Below, piece after piece: positions 16,602-22,140 of a stretch of 64,000 nt of DNA. The notes under the pieces were generated by a model, which saw nothing but the letters and a program-made list of their open reading frames with translations, searched no databases and had not been told where the DNA came from. The DNA is from Rhizophagus irregularis (taxonomy: Eukaryota; Glomeromycota; Glomeromycetes; Glomerales; Glomeraceae), in NCBI RefSeq assembly GCF_026210795.1, contig NC_089446.1, positions 3,749,001-3,813,000 of the forward strand. The letters are read 5' to 3'. Made by a program: the position numbers and the translations under genes. Every line of letters begins with the position of its first letter. Positions within the stretch are counted from its first letter, which is position 1.

Positions 16602-16779
16602 CTATATTATTATTAAATAAAATTAAAAATAATAAATTAATACTTTATATTAAAAAAAAGAAAAATGATTCATTCTTGATATATACTTTTTCATATAATA
16701 TATTTGATTTCAATAAAGGAATATTAAATATCATATTTTAACAAAGGAATGGGAATGTTAAAGATGAAAGGAAACATAT

Positions 16780-16870
16780 TTTAGCCTTTCGTGATGAAAG
16801 GAATCTTATTTTAGCCTTTCGTGACGAAAGGAATCTTATTTTAGCCTTTCGTGACAAAAGGAATATCGAT
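16780..16870. repeat. palindromic short tandem repeat, left part of the transposon target
   Basis: About 32-bp units 'tagcctttcgtgacgaaagg' followed by 'aatcttatttt' occur three times. Each unit is itself a small palindrome (CCTTTCGT/ACGAAAGG). The array continues at 22068-22130 on the far side of the TTAA transposon, so the transposon landed inside it. Confidence 0.8.
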
Positions 16871-16878
16871 TATTTTAA

Positions 16879-19800
16879 GGGGAGCGTGTAGTCACGTGAT
16901 TTTTATTATGATCAACATGGCACAAAATTTAGGAATCCGAATCGGAAATTTTTAAGGGCGTCTCATAAATCCAGCCAGAATAGGATCACAGAATCCTACC
17001 AAAATTATAAAAAATATTTTATTTTTTTTTTTGTAATACAATATAAATTTTTTGTAACTCTCATTTCAATAAAAAACTCCAACACCGATTTTGTGCTATT
17101 TCTATGGCATTTTCGGTAATTCCTTCTATTATTACTTTACCGGACAATTGTGTAGAACTTGTACTTGTATTTACTTTTTTTAAATCAATACGAACTTTTA
17201 CCAAATTTTTTATAATTAAATTGTCAAGTAAACGAGAAATATCTTCAAATCGCCGAAGAGTTTTGTTGTAATCTTGTTTGTAAATCGGTAAAGAACTGAG
17301 TTGCTTTTCTTTGATATTATTGTTATTTGCTTTAGCAAAAACATGAATAATATCGATAGGTAAAGTAAGTTGATTTCTCATTCCCAAAAATTCTGTCACA
17401 GCGATAATAACTTTCAGTAAATGAATTACATCATTTTTAATATTTTCAGATTTTGGAAGATCTTTAAAATAGTTTATGCAACAATCACATTTTGTACACC
17501 GCGGAATTTTGGAATCGGATTGCCATGAATGGTAAGCTGCAAGTTGTTGGGCACGACATTCATAAATACTCTCACAATAAGTAACCATTTCAAATATCTT
17601 CCTTTGCCCCTTGTTTAGATATTGTGTGCGTTCAAGAGATGTAGATTCATTATTATCGAAATCACTATAAAGAAAACTATTTATTAAATAAGTTTTTTAT
17701 TTGTAATGAAAGAAATTCACAGTACCTTTCACGGCCTCCTGTAATTATGGTATATACAGTTTTAATATCATTTCGGGAATAAAACAAAATGCTTTGTGCT
17801 GGATTTCCATCACGACCTGCACGTCCGGATTCTTGTATAAAATTACCTATGTAATAAAAAGAAAAAGGTAAATTTTCTTATAACTGATATTTTAACAAAT
17901 AATATACAGTAAATCCTAACTTATACTAGACGGAAATGTATAATGTACAACAGTGCGAATATTAGGTGAATTTACGCCCAACCCAAAAGCATTTGTTGCT
18001 ATCATGACTTTTAGTAGTCGAGATTTCCATTGAAGCATAACTTGATCTCTTTCAAAACTTTCAAGACCTCCGTGATAAGTGCCAATTGCTGTGCCTTTTA
18101 GTTTGTCTTGCAATAAAGGTAATATTTCATTGCATATACCTGGAGAAGAACAATAAATTATGCATTGACCATCACTAATTTCATTAACAATTTTAGCTAT
18201 TTCCACTAAATTTCTTTCACGGGTACTCTTTTTTTTCACTATATATTCAATTTCAGGACGGGAAAAGCATGAACTGCGAATCACATTAAAGTTTACAGAA
18301 TTAATATTGAGGTTTTGACGAATTACTTCTGCATCATCTTGGGAACAAGTGGCAGTAAGAAGTAAAATGGAAGTGGATGGAAAAAACTCTTTTAAGCAGC
18401 CTAGCTTCCCCCATTCAGGCCTAATAAAATAATGTAAGAAGTTTAGATTAATATATATATATATATATATATAAAAGAAATTGTAATTCTTACCTGTAAT
18501 GGTTATATTCCAGTATACAATGGGCTTCATCTATTACAAATCTAACGCCTATTTCTCCATGAACTTTTCTTAACATATTACGAAAACCTTGATTGAGCAT
18601 TAGTTTTTCTGGTGTTATCAATAATATTTTGAGCATTTTACTCGCGATTTCTTGAAAAACTTTCTCTTGGTATTCCAATGATTGTCCTGTTGTTGCGTAA
18701 AGCCCTGCACATGGTATTCCAACTTTGATTAATTCGTTCTGAAGTAAAGATAAAGGCAAGTTAATATTTTTAAAATATAATCACTAAATCTTACACAATT
18801 ACCACTTGATCTAAAATTAATGCTTTCAAAGGTGAAATCACTACTGTCAATCCAGAAAAAATCAAACTGGATGCTGCGTAACAAAAGGTTTTGCCACCTC
18901 CTGTTTGAATTAATGCAAAAACATCCTGACCTTGGGTATATGATTGAATAACTTCTCGTTGATATAAGCGGAATGAAGAAAATTGAAATATATGTTGAAG
19001 AATAAATTGATCTGGAGGAATTATTTGAACAGGTAATTTTGAAGTTGGTTGATATGATTCATTAATAATTCTATCATGGTATCCCATTTGAATATAATAA
19101 TTACATAATTTACATAAGCCACTAGATGTGTATTTGGGAAAAGAGCGGCAACATATACATTTGACTGTAGTGGAAAAGTTTTTGATATAACAAGCAAATG
19201 AGGGTGTAAATTCTTCATATTGTTGTATTCTTTTTTGAAACTGGCGACCATAAGGTACTAATTCTTGACTAAAGTCAAAAGATTCTAATTCATTTCGTTG
19301 ATTTAATATTTTTTCACCTTTTTCTTTTGTCTTTTGTGCTAACTTTTCATTATTACGTTCTCTATTTGCCTGTCTTTCTTCTTGTATCTTCCTAATATTT
19401 ATTATATCATTCTCAGAATAACTCCCCACTCCTACGGTGTAAATAAATTCCAAAAGATTTGCAATTCCCTCATTGTTTTGGATTACAGCCAGAGAATAGC
19501 GAGCTGCAAATGACTTCCAATAATCAATTAATTTAGAAAGATAAACTAATTTAGTTCTATTGAATGATTCATTAGATGAAGTGCGAATTTCTGTTACTAA
19601 ACCTTGGCCTTTTGGTAATTGAAAGATTGTAAGTAAAAATTGGCGGAATGCATATCGTTGATTTTCAGTATATGTAATTAGATTAGGTTCTTTCAATTCA
19701 ATATCAGGATTTTCTTTGATCCAGCAAACCTCTGGCCAGCATAAAGAATGATTGCCACAAAGATGTCTAACTAATCCCTCTACTTGAACATACTTCAATT

Positions 19801-22059
19801 CATCTTCGCTAGGAGTATCTATTTCTTTATCAGCTTTTCTTGCACCAGCAGCATAAATGCATCCATTAAAATACTGCATTATCACTTGCTCAAAAGAACG
19901 CCACTGTACATTCTTTACTATAATAAAAATAAGGTGAATTTAGTTAATAATTAAATTCCATTTATTGAATTTATATTTTTAAACATACTGACCAATTTTG
20001 CTACGTATTAATTTTGCAACATGTTTTAAGTCAGCAAATATTTGGTTAACTATTGCTACTGTGCCGAGTGTTTTATTACTTTCCAAATCTCCATCTATTC
20101 CGATATCAAGTAGCAGATCAAATTCTTCCAAAATTGGTGTAACTTTTTGAAGAATAGCAATTAATATCGCGTGTTCCATTTGTCTGGAGCTTTTGTCATG
20201 ATTGCCCTTATGTACAATAACACTCTCACCATTTTTCTTGCATTTACGCGATTTTTAACAAAATAAAATCCAAGAATGGGTCTGTGAGGATATCCATCTA
20301 ATTTTTTTGAAAAGATAAATTCTCCGCTGGCCTGATTTGCATTTCTTACATGTGACCATGACACATCAAAACTTACTGGCAGAATTTTTTCATTTATTTG
20401 CTTTATATATTCACATGTCAATCGAAGAGCTTTGTTTGCACTTTCTTCTGCCTTTTTACAAATCGGATGGAAGATTTTTTTTTGATTTTCATGGTGAGAT
20501 TTTTTGGTAAGTTGCTGGGTTATTCCAAGTGTTGCTAATATCATTTCAAGTGATTGACGATTGATTCCTCCTACTAATCCACTACTTGCCACTGCTAAAG
20601 AAAAGTTTGAAGAAGTTTCATTGGAATATTCTGTATATTTCCCACAATCACATGTAATTGAAACTTTGAAAGTGAATCCTATAGAACAAACACTATATTG
20701 ACGTTTAGAATCAAGCATTGTAAAGCATTGCGAACATGGTTGAGACAATACTAGTCGGAGGAATTGGTCTGTATTAATGAGCATAGTGGTACCTATATTT
20801 GATTCTTGTATTAAATTTGAAACCTTACTCTCGATATTTTCTTTATTTTCTTGTAGGTTAACAATAAAAGGATTCATTGCCTGTTCATGTTCAACTAATT
20901 TATTTTCTGTACGCTTTAATTTTTTTTTCAGATTTCTTTTTTCGTTAAGTTCTGAAGCATATTCACATACAAGTGCTTGGGTCGATTTAGGAGTCATGGG
21001 AAGACCATTAGAACTGATTAAAATACCCGAATTGATTTTTACTGTATTAGAAGTTGTTGAAGTAGATATATTATTTTCTAAATTTTCACATAAACTACTT
21101 GCTTTTCGTTTCATTTTATTTTTTATTCTATTTGTAGTTACAATCGCATTATGAGCCTGTTTAACTTGAGTGAATAAATTTGGAAACGTCATATTAATTA
21201 CATTCCTGAGTTGAATCACAATTTCCAAAATATTGAGTCCTATTAAAGCAGGAATTGAAACGCGACCATCTATATTGAGATAATGAATCAATCCATGAAA
21301 AAAATTACGATGGGAGGATCTGTGTACACAATCAGTAAGAGAAATATCATCTTCATAATCTTCATACATATAAATTAAATTATTGTTGCTGTCTTTAGTA
21401 ATTGCAAGTCGTAAGAGTTTTTTTTTCCAAAGAATTATTACTGTATAACCAACTAATAAAGGAACCCAAGTACTTGTAGAGTTATCTTTTGGATAATTAT
21501 GTACTGTTAAAGCAAGGTATGGAGTAGTTGTTGAAGAACTAGAAGTAACAAGTTCGTTGTGTATATCCAAAGCTTCCAAAGGTACGGATTTGTCAAATAC
21601 AAGCCAACTATTATTATATGGTCGCTGGTAACTTTCGAAATGCGGATTCCTTTGGCATAAAATTTGATACCATTTCCGTAAAGGCATGTCTAAATAGTAG
21701 AATAACAATAAAGTTAAAATTTGGAAAGTGTAAATAATAAATAAAAGCATAATATCGTTTTTGAAATAAAATTTGGGTAACTAAAAAATCCCGGCAAATA
21801 GGATTCTGAACTTTTATATAGCGATTCTGAACTTTTTTTGAACTTCTTTTGATATTTTCTTCTAAAATATAATATGTAAGTCTATATAAAAACTGTACCT
21901 GACGAAACTTTAGGTTCTAAAAAATGAGAAAAAGTGGTTTTTATTTTTATATTGTTTATTTGATTATCACGTTGACTTTGACGCGAAAATCTAAAACCGC
22001 AGAAAAATTTTTGACGCCGATCAATCTTATATTAAAAATCACGTGACTACACACTCCCC
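16879..22059 (-). mobile_element. complete TTAA-flanked (Kolobok-like) DNA transposon encoding a transposase-RecQ fusion
   Basis: TTAA target duplications lie at 16875-16878 and 22060-22063. The terminal inverted repeat of about 27 bp begins GGGGAG[C/T]GTGTAGTCACG and ends TGATTTTTA, with one mismatch between ends; it contains the palindrome CACGTG. The 5,181-bp interior holds one minus-strand, six-exon gene running end to end. TTAA duplication plus the layout of the transposase (Cys-rich module, FDVSW, SSRQMEH, then IDGD and a DLKH motif) fits the Kolobok superfamily rather than piggyBac. The near-identical termini and the single coding lesion imply a recent insertion. Confidence 0.88.
17061..21687 (-). 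CDS. Kolobok-like DDE transposase fused to RecQ-family helicase (one frameshift)
   Basis: Exons: 21687-19993, 19917-18803, 18738-18494, 18420-17927, 17846-17726, 17664-17061; about 1,424 aa. Phases of all introns agree. N-terminal half: Cys-rich module (QPCSQCFTMLD, TCDCGKY), then putative catalytic Asp in FDVSW (about aa 438), SSRQMEH, and IGIDGDLESNKTL (about aa 530). C-terminal half: helicase motif I TGGGKT (about aa 902), SPLKALILDQV, DEAH (about 1009), TATCSQ, ATNAFGLGVNSPN, motif VI QESGRAGRDG (about 1190), a RecQ zinc-binding module (YECRAQQLAAYHSW, CTKCDCC) and a winged-helix-like tail. Lesion: one A appears missing in an A-run near 20245. Start chosen at 21687 (MPLRKWYQ); 21750 is possible but adds only an AT-driven hydrophobic stretch. 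Expected to act in the nucleus: strand transfer by the DDE part, DNA unwinding by RecQ. Confidence 0.85.
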
Positions 22060-22063
22060 TTAA

Positions 22064-22140
22064 CCAAGGATTTAGCCTTTCATGACGAAAGGAATATTTT
22101 AATTCAGCCTTTGTGACAAAGGAATAGCAAGCAAATTTAC
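22064..22140. repeat. right part of the palindromic target array
   Basis: Two further copies of the 'agcctttcatgacgaaagg' type unit directly follow the right TTAA, continuing the array at 16780-16870. Confidence 0.75.

Follow-up and report, generated by a model that had tools for sequence, protein, structure and literature searches.

The window is the whole stretch of 64,000 nucleotides of Rhizophagus irregularis DNA that was analysed. It contains a TTAA-flanked element of 5181 bp with one gene on the minus strand, in which transposase residues are followed by a RecQ helicase. In the window sequence the bounds of the element, 16879-22059, are exact to the base, as given in the preliminary description. 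The features are as follows, with residue numbers taken from the protein of a sister copy, L002.

16879-22059, minus strand: whole element, one gene, 5181 bp
16875-16878, no strand: left TTAA target duplication, adjoining the left end
22060-22063, no strand: right TTAA target duplication, adjoining the right end
16879-16905, no strand: left terminal inverted repeat, 27 bp
22033-22059, no strand: right terminal inverted repeat, 27 bp
19993-21687, minus strand: exon 1, encoding the N-terminal region and the beginning of the DDE core; in the window copy its frame is broken near 20.25 kb
20365-20367, minus strand: codon of the putative first catalytic Asp, residue 441, assigned by eye
20087-20095, minus strand: Asp-Gly-Asp with the presumed second catalytic Asp, residues 532-534
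18803-19917, minus strand: exon 2, transposase end, zinc-binding joint and helicase start in one open frame (382-aa frame at 18791-19939)
19568-19570, minus strand: presumed catalytic Glu codon, residue 682, in NESFNR
19103-19159, minus strand: C-x2-C ... C-x2-C segment between transposase and helicase, residues 819-837
18884-18907, minus strand: helicase motif I (Walker A, TGGGKT)
18494-18738, minus strand: exon 3, helicase motif II (DEAHC)
17927-18420, minus strand: exon 4, helicase motifs III-V (Helicase_C)
17726-17846, minus strand: exon 5, helicase motif VI (QESGRAGRDG)
17061-17664, minus strand: exon 6, RecQ zinc-binding module followed by the C-terminal region

The preliminary description had read the locus as a TTAA transposon whose single gene joins a Kolobok-like transposase to a RecQ helicase, and this is supported. 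The gene model contains its junctions 19993/19917 and 18803/18738, the transposase residues, all main RecQ motifs and the RecQ zinc module. There are indeed six exons on the minus strand, but they are not all in phase in the window copy, where exon 1 has its frame broken by one base near 20.25 kb and translation of the model runs for 508 codons before a first stop. The sister copy L002 is open over 1424 codons, and in L001 and L003 the helicase half is broken, after 1138 and 1089 codons respectively. The joint between transposase and helicase falls within a single open exon, exon 2, and in the window family it contains neither stop nor intron. For the 382-aa middle frame a structure was predicted from the single sequence and discarded (pLDDT 40, pTM 0.26). 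The single polypeptide is a prediction from genomic frames.

The 27-bp terminal repeats reported earlier are present and match at 26 of 27 bases (16879-16905 against 22033-22059). They sit within 35-nt arms, TTAA included, that are 94% complementary. The TTAA duplications are likewise found on both sides, and a search with the flanks of the window copy fetched seven empty paralogous sites, each with a single TTAA; this applies to the window copy alone (L002 was left out of the joined-flank search, and the flanks of L001 and L003, once joined, gave only diverged or partial relatives, at best 73% and 85% respectively). Four copies of 5181-5183 bp have distinct flanks and differ in 11 of 5183 alignment columns. 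All four have the TTAA target-site duplication and GG ... CC termini, which agree with 5'-RR ... YY-3', and seven other loci with recognised ends start with GG. With up to 3 mismatches allowed, a 25-base pattern of the ends occurs 40 times in the genome (147 Mb), compared with 0 for the reversed control. The ends are also shared with short TTAA-flanked elements of 460-479 bp: seven of 15 short stretches are complete, L038 was left out because one of its sides has TTTA, and a full pair of ends was seen in none of L034-L036 and L039-L042.

In the transposase half, the DDD/E catalytic triad typical of Kolobok is presumably formed by putative Asp 441, Asp 532 and Glu 682, residues that were assigned by eye from conserved motifs, using sequence only. 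Asp 441 is found in 23 of 25 alignment rows (the other two are gaps), Asp 532 in 22 and Glu 682 in 21, with Lys in three. The C/DxxH motif is CGNH in the window family; its His is present in 22/25 rows, but of 24 rows only 6 have Cys at the first position, 10 having Leu, 7 Ser and 1 Arg. Cys 625 (21/25 rows) and Cys 630 (22/25) come after this His, and equating them with the published zinc finger is our own reading. Pfam gave no confident match for the transposase half, and structure searches found no solved relative (one chance-level match in each of two). One of six members scanned matches PF20700 'Mutator-like transposase' (E 0.0013), and this is considered weak because one of the same six matches the unrelated Schlafen family with an E of 0.00038. 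The piggyBac transposons, which also use TTAA, were rejected as a candidate: no piggyBac model is among the Pfam matches, and the ends begin with GG. According to the available text of PMC9587614, RR/YY termini separate Kolobok from piggyBac.

The helicase part of the L002 protein scores 319.5 bits against TIGR00614 (cut-off 219.8), and the RecQ zinc-binding module PF16124 is found in exon 6 of the window with 30.1 bits (cut-off 25), so that this half is a predicted RecQ helicase by both the family model and the zinc module. The Walker A Lys and the DEAH residues are present in 24/25 rows, the remaining row being a gap. Pfam lists neither RQC nor HRDC for the L002 protein, and RQC reaches the Pfam cut-off in seven relatives. 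Ten representatives are 32-39% identical in their RecQ core to the chain in 1oyw, which we take to be E. coli RecQ, and 38-84% identical to each other. In a comparison of the helicase frame with plasmids, the five rows looked at among 170 records were all annotated as RecQ, and in viral contigs none of 26 pattern matches was confirmed.

Relatives of the element are found elsewhere in the genome, and of the 28 loci examined 25 have both halves in this order. Separate genes for the two halves in other copies would have spoken against the preliminary description; these 28 loci contain no intact separate halves. L027 has a transposase only, and the decayed helicase stretches L050 and L051 have no transposase match. 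Left out of the 28 are transposase fragments at C26, C22 (2.62, 3.15 Mb), C16 (1.32 Mb) and C1 (3.93 Mb), as well as helicase or middle fragments on C1 (two), C29, C22, C3, C4, C27 and C13. The earlier suggestion that such elements could explain RecQ gene expansion in this lineage is supported in this genome to the extent that RecQ matches lie almost wholly in these loci (all 48 listed, and 21 of 22 zinc-domain matches). L001-L024 form ten clusters, and TTAA ends bracket both halves in 11 loci from five of them, so the further TTAA-flanked copies with both halves that had been looked for do exist. Ends were tested in 14 loci, each against 100 shuffled flank pairs. The end score was reached by none of the shuffled pairs for L002, L006, L008, L016 and L012, by 1 for L014 and 4 for L017, and by 10 for L009, 22 for L013, 24 for L024, 31 for L004, 46 for L011, 96 for L010 and 98 for L015; for many relatives terminal repeats were thus not convincingly found. 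L012 was not counted as having ends because its high score stems from an inverted flanking repeat. L009 and L017 were not counted either, and L007, L018 and L021 were counted by their likeness to L006 and L014, not by single tests.

When several of the relatives are read straight through, stops appear at the joint. This would be expected if the element made transposase and helicase as two separate proteins, with no fusion, and the published description of KolobokH, in the part available, says only that the helicase is 'downstream of the transposase domain' (PMC9587614). We nevertheless regard two proteins as improbable. In eight relatives the stops are confined to a gap of 65-80 nt just after codon 783 that starts with GT and ends with AG, with coding resuming beyond it, and the window family reads across the joint without any interruption.

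Transposase and helicase distances are correlated (Mantel r 0.888, 0/9999 permutations), which points to one common history of the two halves. Selection was estimated for the 27 pairs with transposase identity of 0.55-0.97 only, and four L022 pairs were left out of the range (dS <=0.05, dN/dS 0.52-0.95). In the 23 remaining pairs, from five clusters, dN/dS is 0.11-0.25 for the transposase and 0.10-0.30 for the helicase; in 3 of the 23, transposase dS is >2 and thus near saturation. These values indicate purifying selection on both halves in the relatives, and the fusion appears to be old and maintained by selection. The window's own family is outside this test because its copies are too alike. 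The broken frame of the window copy might suggest a passenger role for the RecQ half, or that a transposon and a host gene are chance neighbours here, but it is very unlikely that either is the case: the ends and the empty sites enclose both halves, their order is kept across the loci, and the helicase has both low dN/dS and a history in common with the transposase. On the basis of loci order, TTAA ends, joint history and selection, a chance composite and separate genes were both rejected.

On the general view, cut-and-paste transposons rely on the host for repair. Here, the simplest reading of the one gene is a single polypeptide, with an N-terminal region, then a DDE transposase, then a short zinc-binding joint and lastly a RecQ helicase. 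From what is known of DDE transposases in general, the transposase would recognise the terminal repeats, excise the element and insert it at TTAA. The tethered 3'-5' helicase might then work at the cut ends or at the gap left in the donor, by unwinding or by promoting repair from the sister copy; this step, drawn from general knowledge of RecQ, is the least certain. We consider it probable that the element belongs to the KolobokH lineage of DNA transposons and was mobile recently, with such a gene and with a tethered helicase acting on the cut ends or donor gap. More tentatively, the tethered RecQ may carry out a required step of transposition, one polypeptide both cutting the transposon out and opening or repairing the DNA left behind. 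The purifying selection on the helicase fits a role coupled to transposition and does not show that role, nor does it say what the selection is for. The helicase of a KolobokH element could also act outside transposition, by countering silencing or in a general maintenance of the genome or chromosome ends that favours persistence. KolobokH adjoins telomere repeats in another fungus according to the accessible part of PMC10989895, and 4 of the 28 loci have a contig end no more than 60 kb away. The other 24 are far from contig ends, and none of the clusters examined has lost the tether between helicase and transposase, as would be expected if both act at the same DNA. We find a helicase action outside transposition rather unlikely.

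With a helicase that is fused to a transposase and selected as strictly as the transposase over deep divergence, a role of the helicase in transposition can be put to the test. To count RecQ genes in this genome is mostly to count transposons, and this bears on annotation and on any claim that DNA-repair genes have expanded. If the helicase does perform a required step, KolobokH would be a DDE transposon of eukaryotes equipped with a repair helicase of its own, and nearly every recognisable RecQ gene in this fungus would code for such a helicase.

Contrary to what the preliminary description had implied, the combination is not new, because the lineage has already been published as KolobokH by Kojima and Bao in 2022 (PMC9587614). 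The available text of that paper gives KolobokH a fungal host, a Kolobok-type transposase with RecQ downstream, TTAA duplications and 5'-RR...YY-3' ends, all in common with the element described here; RecQ downstream of the transposase holds for the window family as well as the 25 loci. The comparison, made with the published description, showed no difference, and Rhizophagus is absent from the main text of the paper as far as it was available. KolobokD, KolobokE, KolobokP and Kolobok0 likewise combine a Kolobok transposase with a second DNA-processing protein, but their partners are not RecQ: in the same partial text they are a DnaQ-like exonuclease, a lambda-exonuclease-like nuclease, a His-Me finger nuclease and KolX (PMC9587614). 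AcademH of fungi and animals is also a helicase-carrying DNA transposon and belongs to another superfamily, a separation that follows its description in the available part of PMC10799480, not a sequence comparison. With RecQ helicases themselves (TIGR00614; RECQ1, BLM, 1oyw) the element's helicase shares motifs 0-VI and the zinc module, and unlike them it is fused to a transposase.

The transposon in the window has moved by insertion at TTAA, and it carries a transposase and a RecQ helicase in one gene. The features concerned are as follows.

16763-16867 and 22071-22098: tandem units of about 30 bp, TTTAGCCTTTCGTGACGAAAGGAATCTT-like, in the repeat around the element
16879-22059, minus-strand gene: the TTAA transposon, with a DDE transposase half and a RecQ helicase half
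18451-18473 (approximate): (TA)n microsatellite within intron 3
18791-19939, within exon 2 of the minus-strand gene: open 382-aa frame running from transposase to DEAD domain, with the joint between the halves inside it
19103-19159, minus strand: segment with a conserved C-x2-C ... C-x2-C pattern, situated between the two halves and without a Pfam name; its final position is His in the L006 cluster of distant relatives

The outer coordinates are exact to the base, as the preliminary description had them, and the 27-bp terminal inverted repeats it reported are present with one mismatch, enclosed by 35-nt arms that include the TTAA and are 94% complementary. From the genome (146.7 Mb, 32 contigs) three near-identical copies, L001, L002 and L003, were fetched, making four with the window copy. 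These are 5181-5183 bp long, and only 11 of 5183 alignment columns vary, so the family has spread recently. Their flanks differ, with TTAA on both sides in all four. The host site of the window copy is another repeat, and the window flanks, fused at one TTAA, have ten genome matches across all 300 nt (seven at 98-99%, three at 89-90%). The seven closer matches were fetched, and because each of these empty sites has a single TTAA at the joint, they are direct evidence that the element inserted with duplication of TTAA, as had been proposed. The hosting repeat thus occurs at seven or more further places at 98-99% (L043-L049).

The gene has six minus-strand exons and five GT...AG introns of 61-80 nt. 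In L002 it reads open over 1424 codons. The earlier description of six in-phase exons stands as to their number; the phase is lost in the window copy, where a one-base frame break interrupts exon 1 near 20.25 kb. In L001 and L003 the frame is lost in the helicase part, and the breaks in these three copies are due either to decay or to assembly error. The L002 protein matches the Pfam models DEAD (E 2.5e-22), Helicase_C (4.3e-17) and RecQ_Zn_bind (4.1e-06), and no Pfam model matches its transposase half. The helicase part scores 319.5 bits against TIGR00614 (cut-off 219.8), and its best solved relatives include RECQ1, chain 1oyw and BLM. In the alignment of element proteins, 24 of 25 rows keep the Walker A Lys and the DEAH residues, and the remaining row has a gap there. 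Since the presumed catalytic Glu is replaced by Lys in three rows, some element copies are predicted to be dead.

Distant relatives were sought with transposase, middle and helicase frames, and 24 loci were fetched (L004-L027), giving 28 examined loci together with the window family. By the preliminary description, copies with the halves as separate genes would refute the fusion; in 25 of the 28 the two halves share a strand and keep a conserved order. L025 has both halves with a partial helicase; in L026 the helicase is accompanied by just the end of the transposase (from residue 679), and in L027 the transposase stands alone. The last two may be one disrupted element, and both, like L018 and L019, are no more than 60 kb from a contig end (4 of 28 loci). 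TTAA-flanked inverted ends enclose both halves in L006, L007 and L018 (5733-5752 bp), L008 (5432 bp), L014 (5379 bp), L021 (5378 bp) and L016 (7794 bp), so the further TTAA-flanked copies called for earlier do exist, and counting the four window-family copies there are 11 such loci, from five clusters. Scores of the ends of 14 loci against shuffled flanks are a mixture of clear, marginal and negative results. L012 sits between inverted copies of another repeat, immediately outside TTAA on both sides; its left end begins GGGTAGGGTGTACGG, and a right end was not found.

Just past codon 783, eight loci in three clusters (L006, L007, L009, L011, L014, L015, L018 and L022, five of them from one cluster) have a gap of 65-80 nt that starts with GT and ends with AG, with coding resuming beyond. 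A similar stretch is open in L008, and the window family has no gap at this joint. An intron exactly at the boundary between the halves would fit a fusion that arose through the joining of exons. In L020, the gene is interrupted just past the joint (codons 783-822) by about 1.5 kb of additional sequence, which contains a TCACGTGA-like motif shared with the ends of the window element.

A passenger role for the RecQ half is very unlikely. L001-L024 form ten clusters at a threshold of 80% transposase identity, with 37-57% identity among representatives except for two pairs at 80%. Transposase and helicase distances are correlated across them (Mantel r 0.888, 0 of 9999 permutations), and both halves are under constraint: in 23 non-independent pairs from five clusters, dN/dS spans 0.11-0.25 in the transposase and 0.10-0.30 in the helicase, the window's own family being too uniform for the test. 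In the tested relatives selection has thus held the helicase no less strictly than the transposase, and this speaks against the passenger reading.

RecQ sequences in this genome lie largely in such elements, although a host RecQ could escape these exon-wise searches: all 48 TIGR00614 matches listed (35 of 137 candidates scored), 21 of 22 RecQ_Zn_bind matches (26 of 26) and 7 of 7 RQC matches (11 of 11) fall within examined element loci. L050, the sole outside zinc match, and L051, another helicase place, are both decayed, show no transposase match over stretches of 7.8 and 5.4 kb, and are closer to the C-terminal part of the element family (30-31%, about 200 aa) than to chain 1oyw.

Shorter derivatives also exist. 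A 25-base end pattern has 40 genome matches, against 0 for the reversed control. Fifteen stretches surrounding such matches were fetched, and seven of them are complete elements, 460-479 bp long and flanked by TTAA; these share the terminal repeats and, at about 72-81%, parts of the first 258 nt. Used as query, one of them has at least 16 matches in the genome that are 90-100% identical and cover 464 or more of 470 nt, with 40 of the 44 candidates scored. These presumably move in trans, because an element below 500 bp cannot hold either half.

As for mechanism, the DDE part would excise and insert the element, and the RecQ part would unwind DNA 3'-5', most likely at the element ends or the donor gap. 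The leading alternative has the helicase acting outside the transposition reaction, and that the helicase is essential for transposition is a tentative suggestion, somewhat doubtful. The open-licence literature gave no match for RecQ together with the name Glomeromycotina, and the accessible portions of the open-licence papers cited below contain no functional test of the fusion. Kolobok is among the R. irregularis profiles in the accessible text of PMC11075540, where RecQ and helicase are absent. The kind of element is already known: KolobokH is the Kolobok lineage with a RecQ helicase downstream of the transposase (Kojima and Bao 2022, PMC9587614), and the window element is almost certainly KolobokH. 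The main text of that paper makes no mention of Rhizophagus; a passage of PMC10989895, citing Kojima and Bao, places similar structures primarily in R. irregularis, and describes KolobokH adjoining telomere repeats in Cladobotryum. In the part available of PMC10799480, three main origins are given for the TE-derived helicases of fungi, KolobokH among them.
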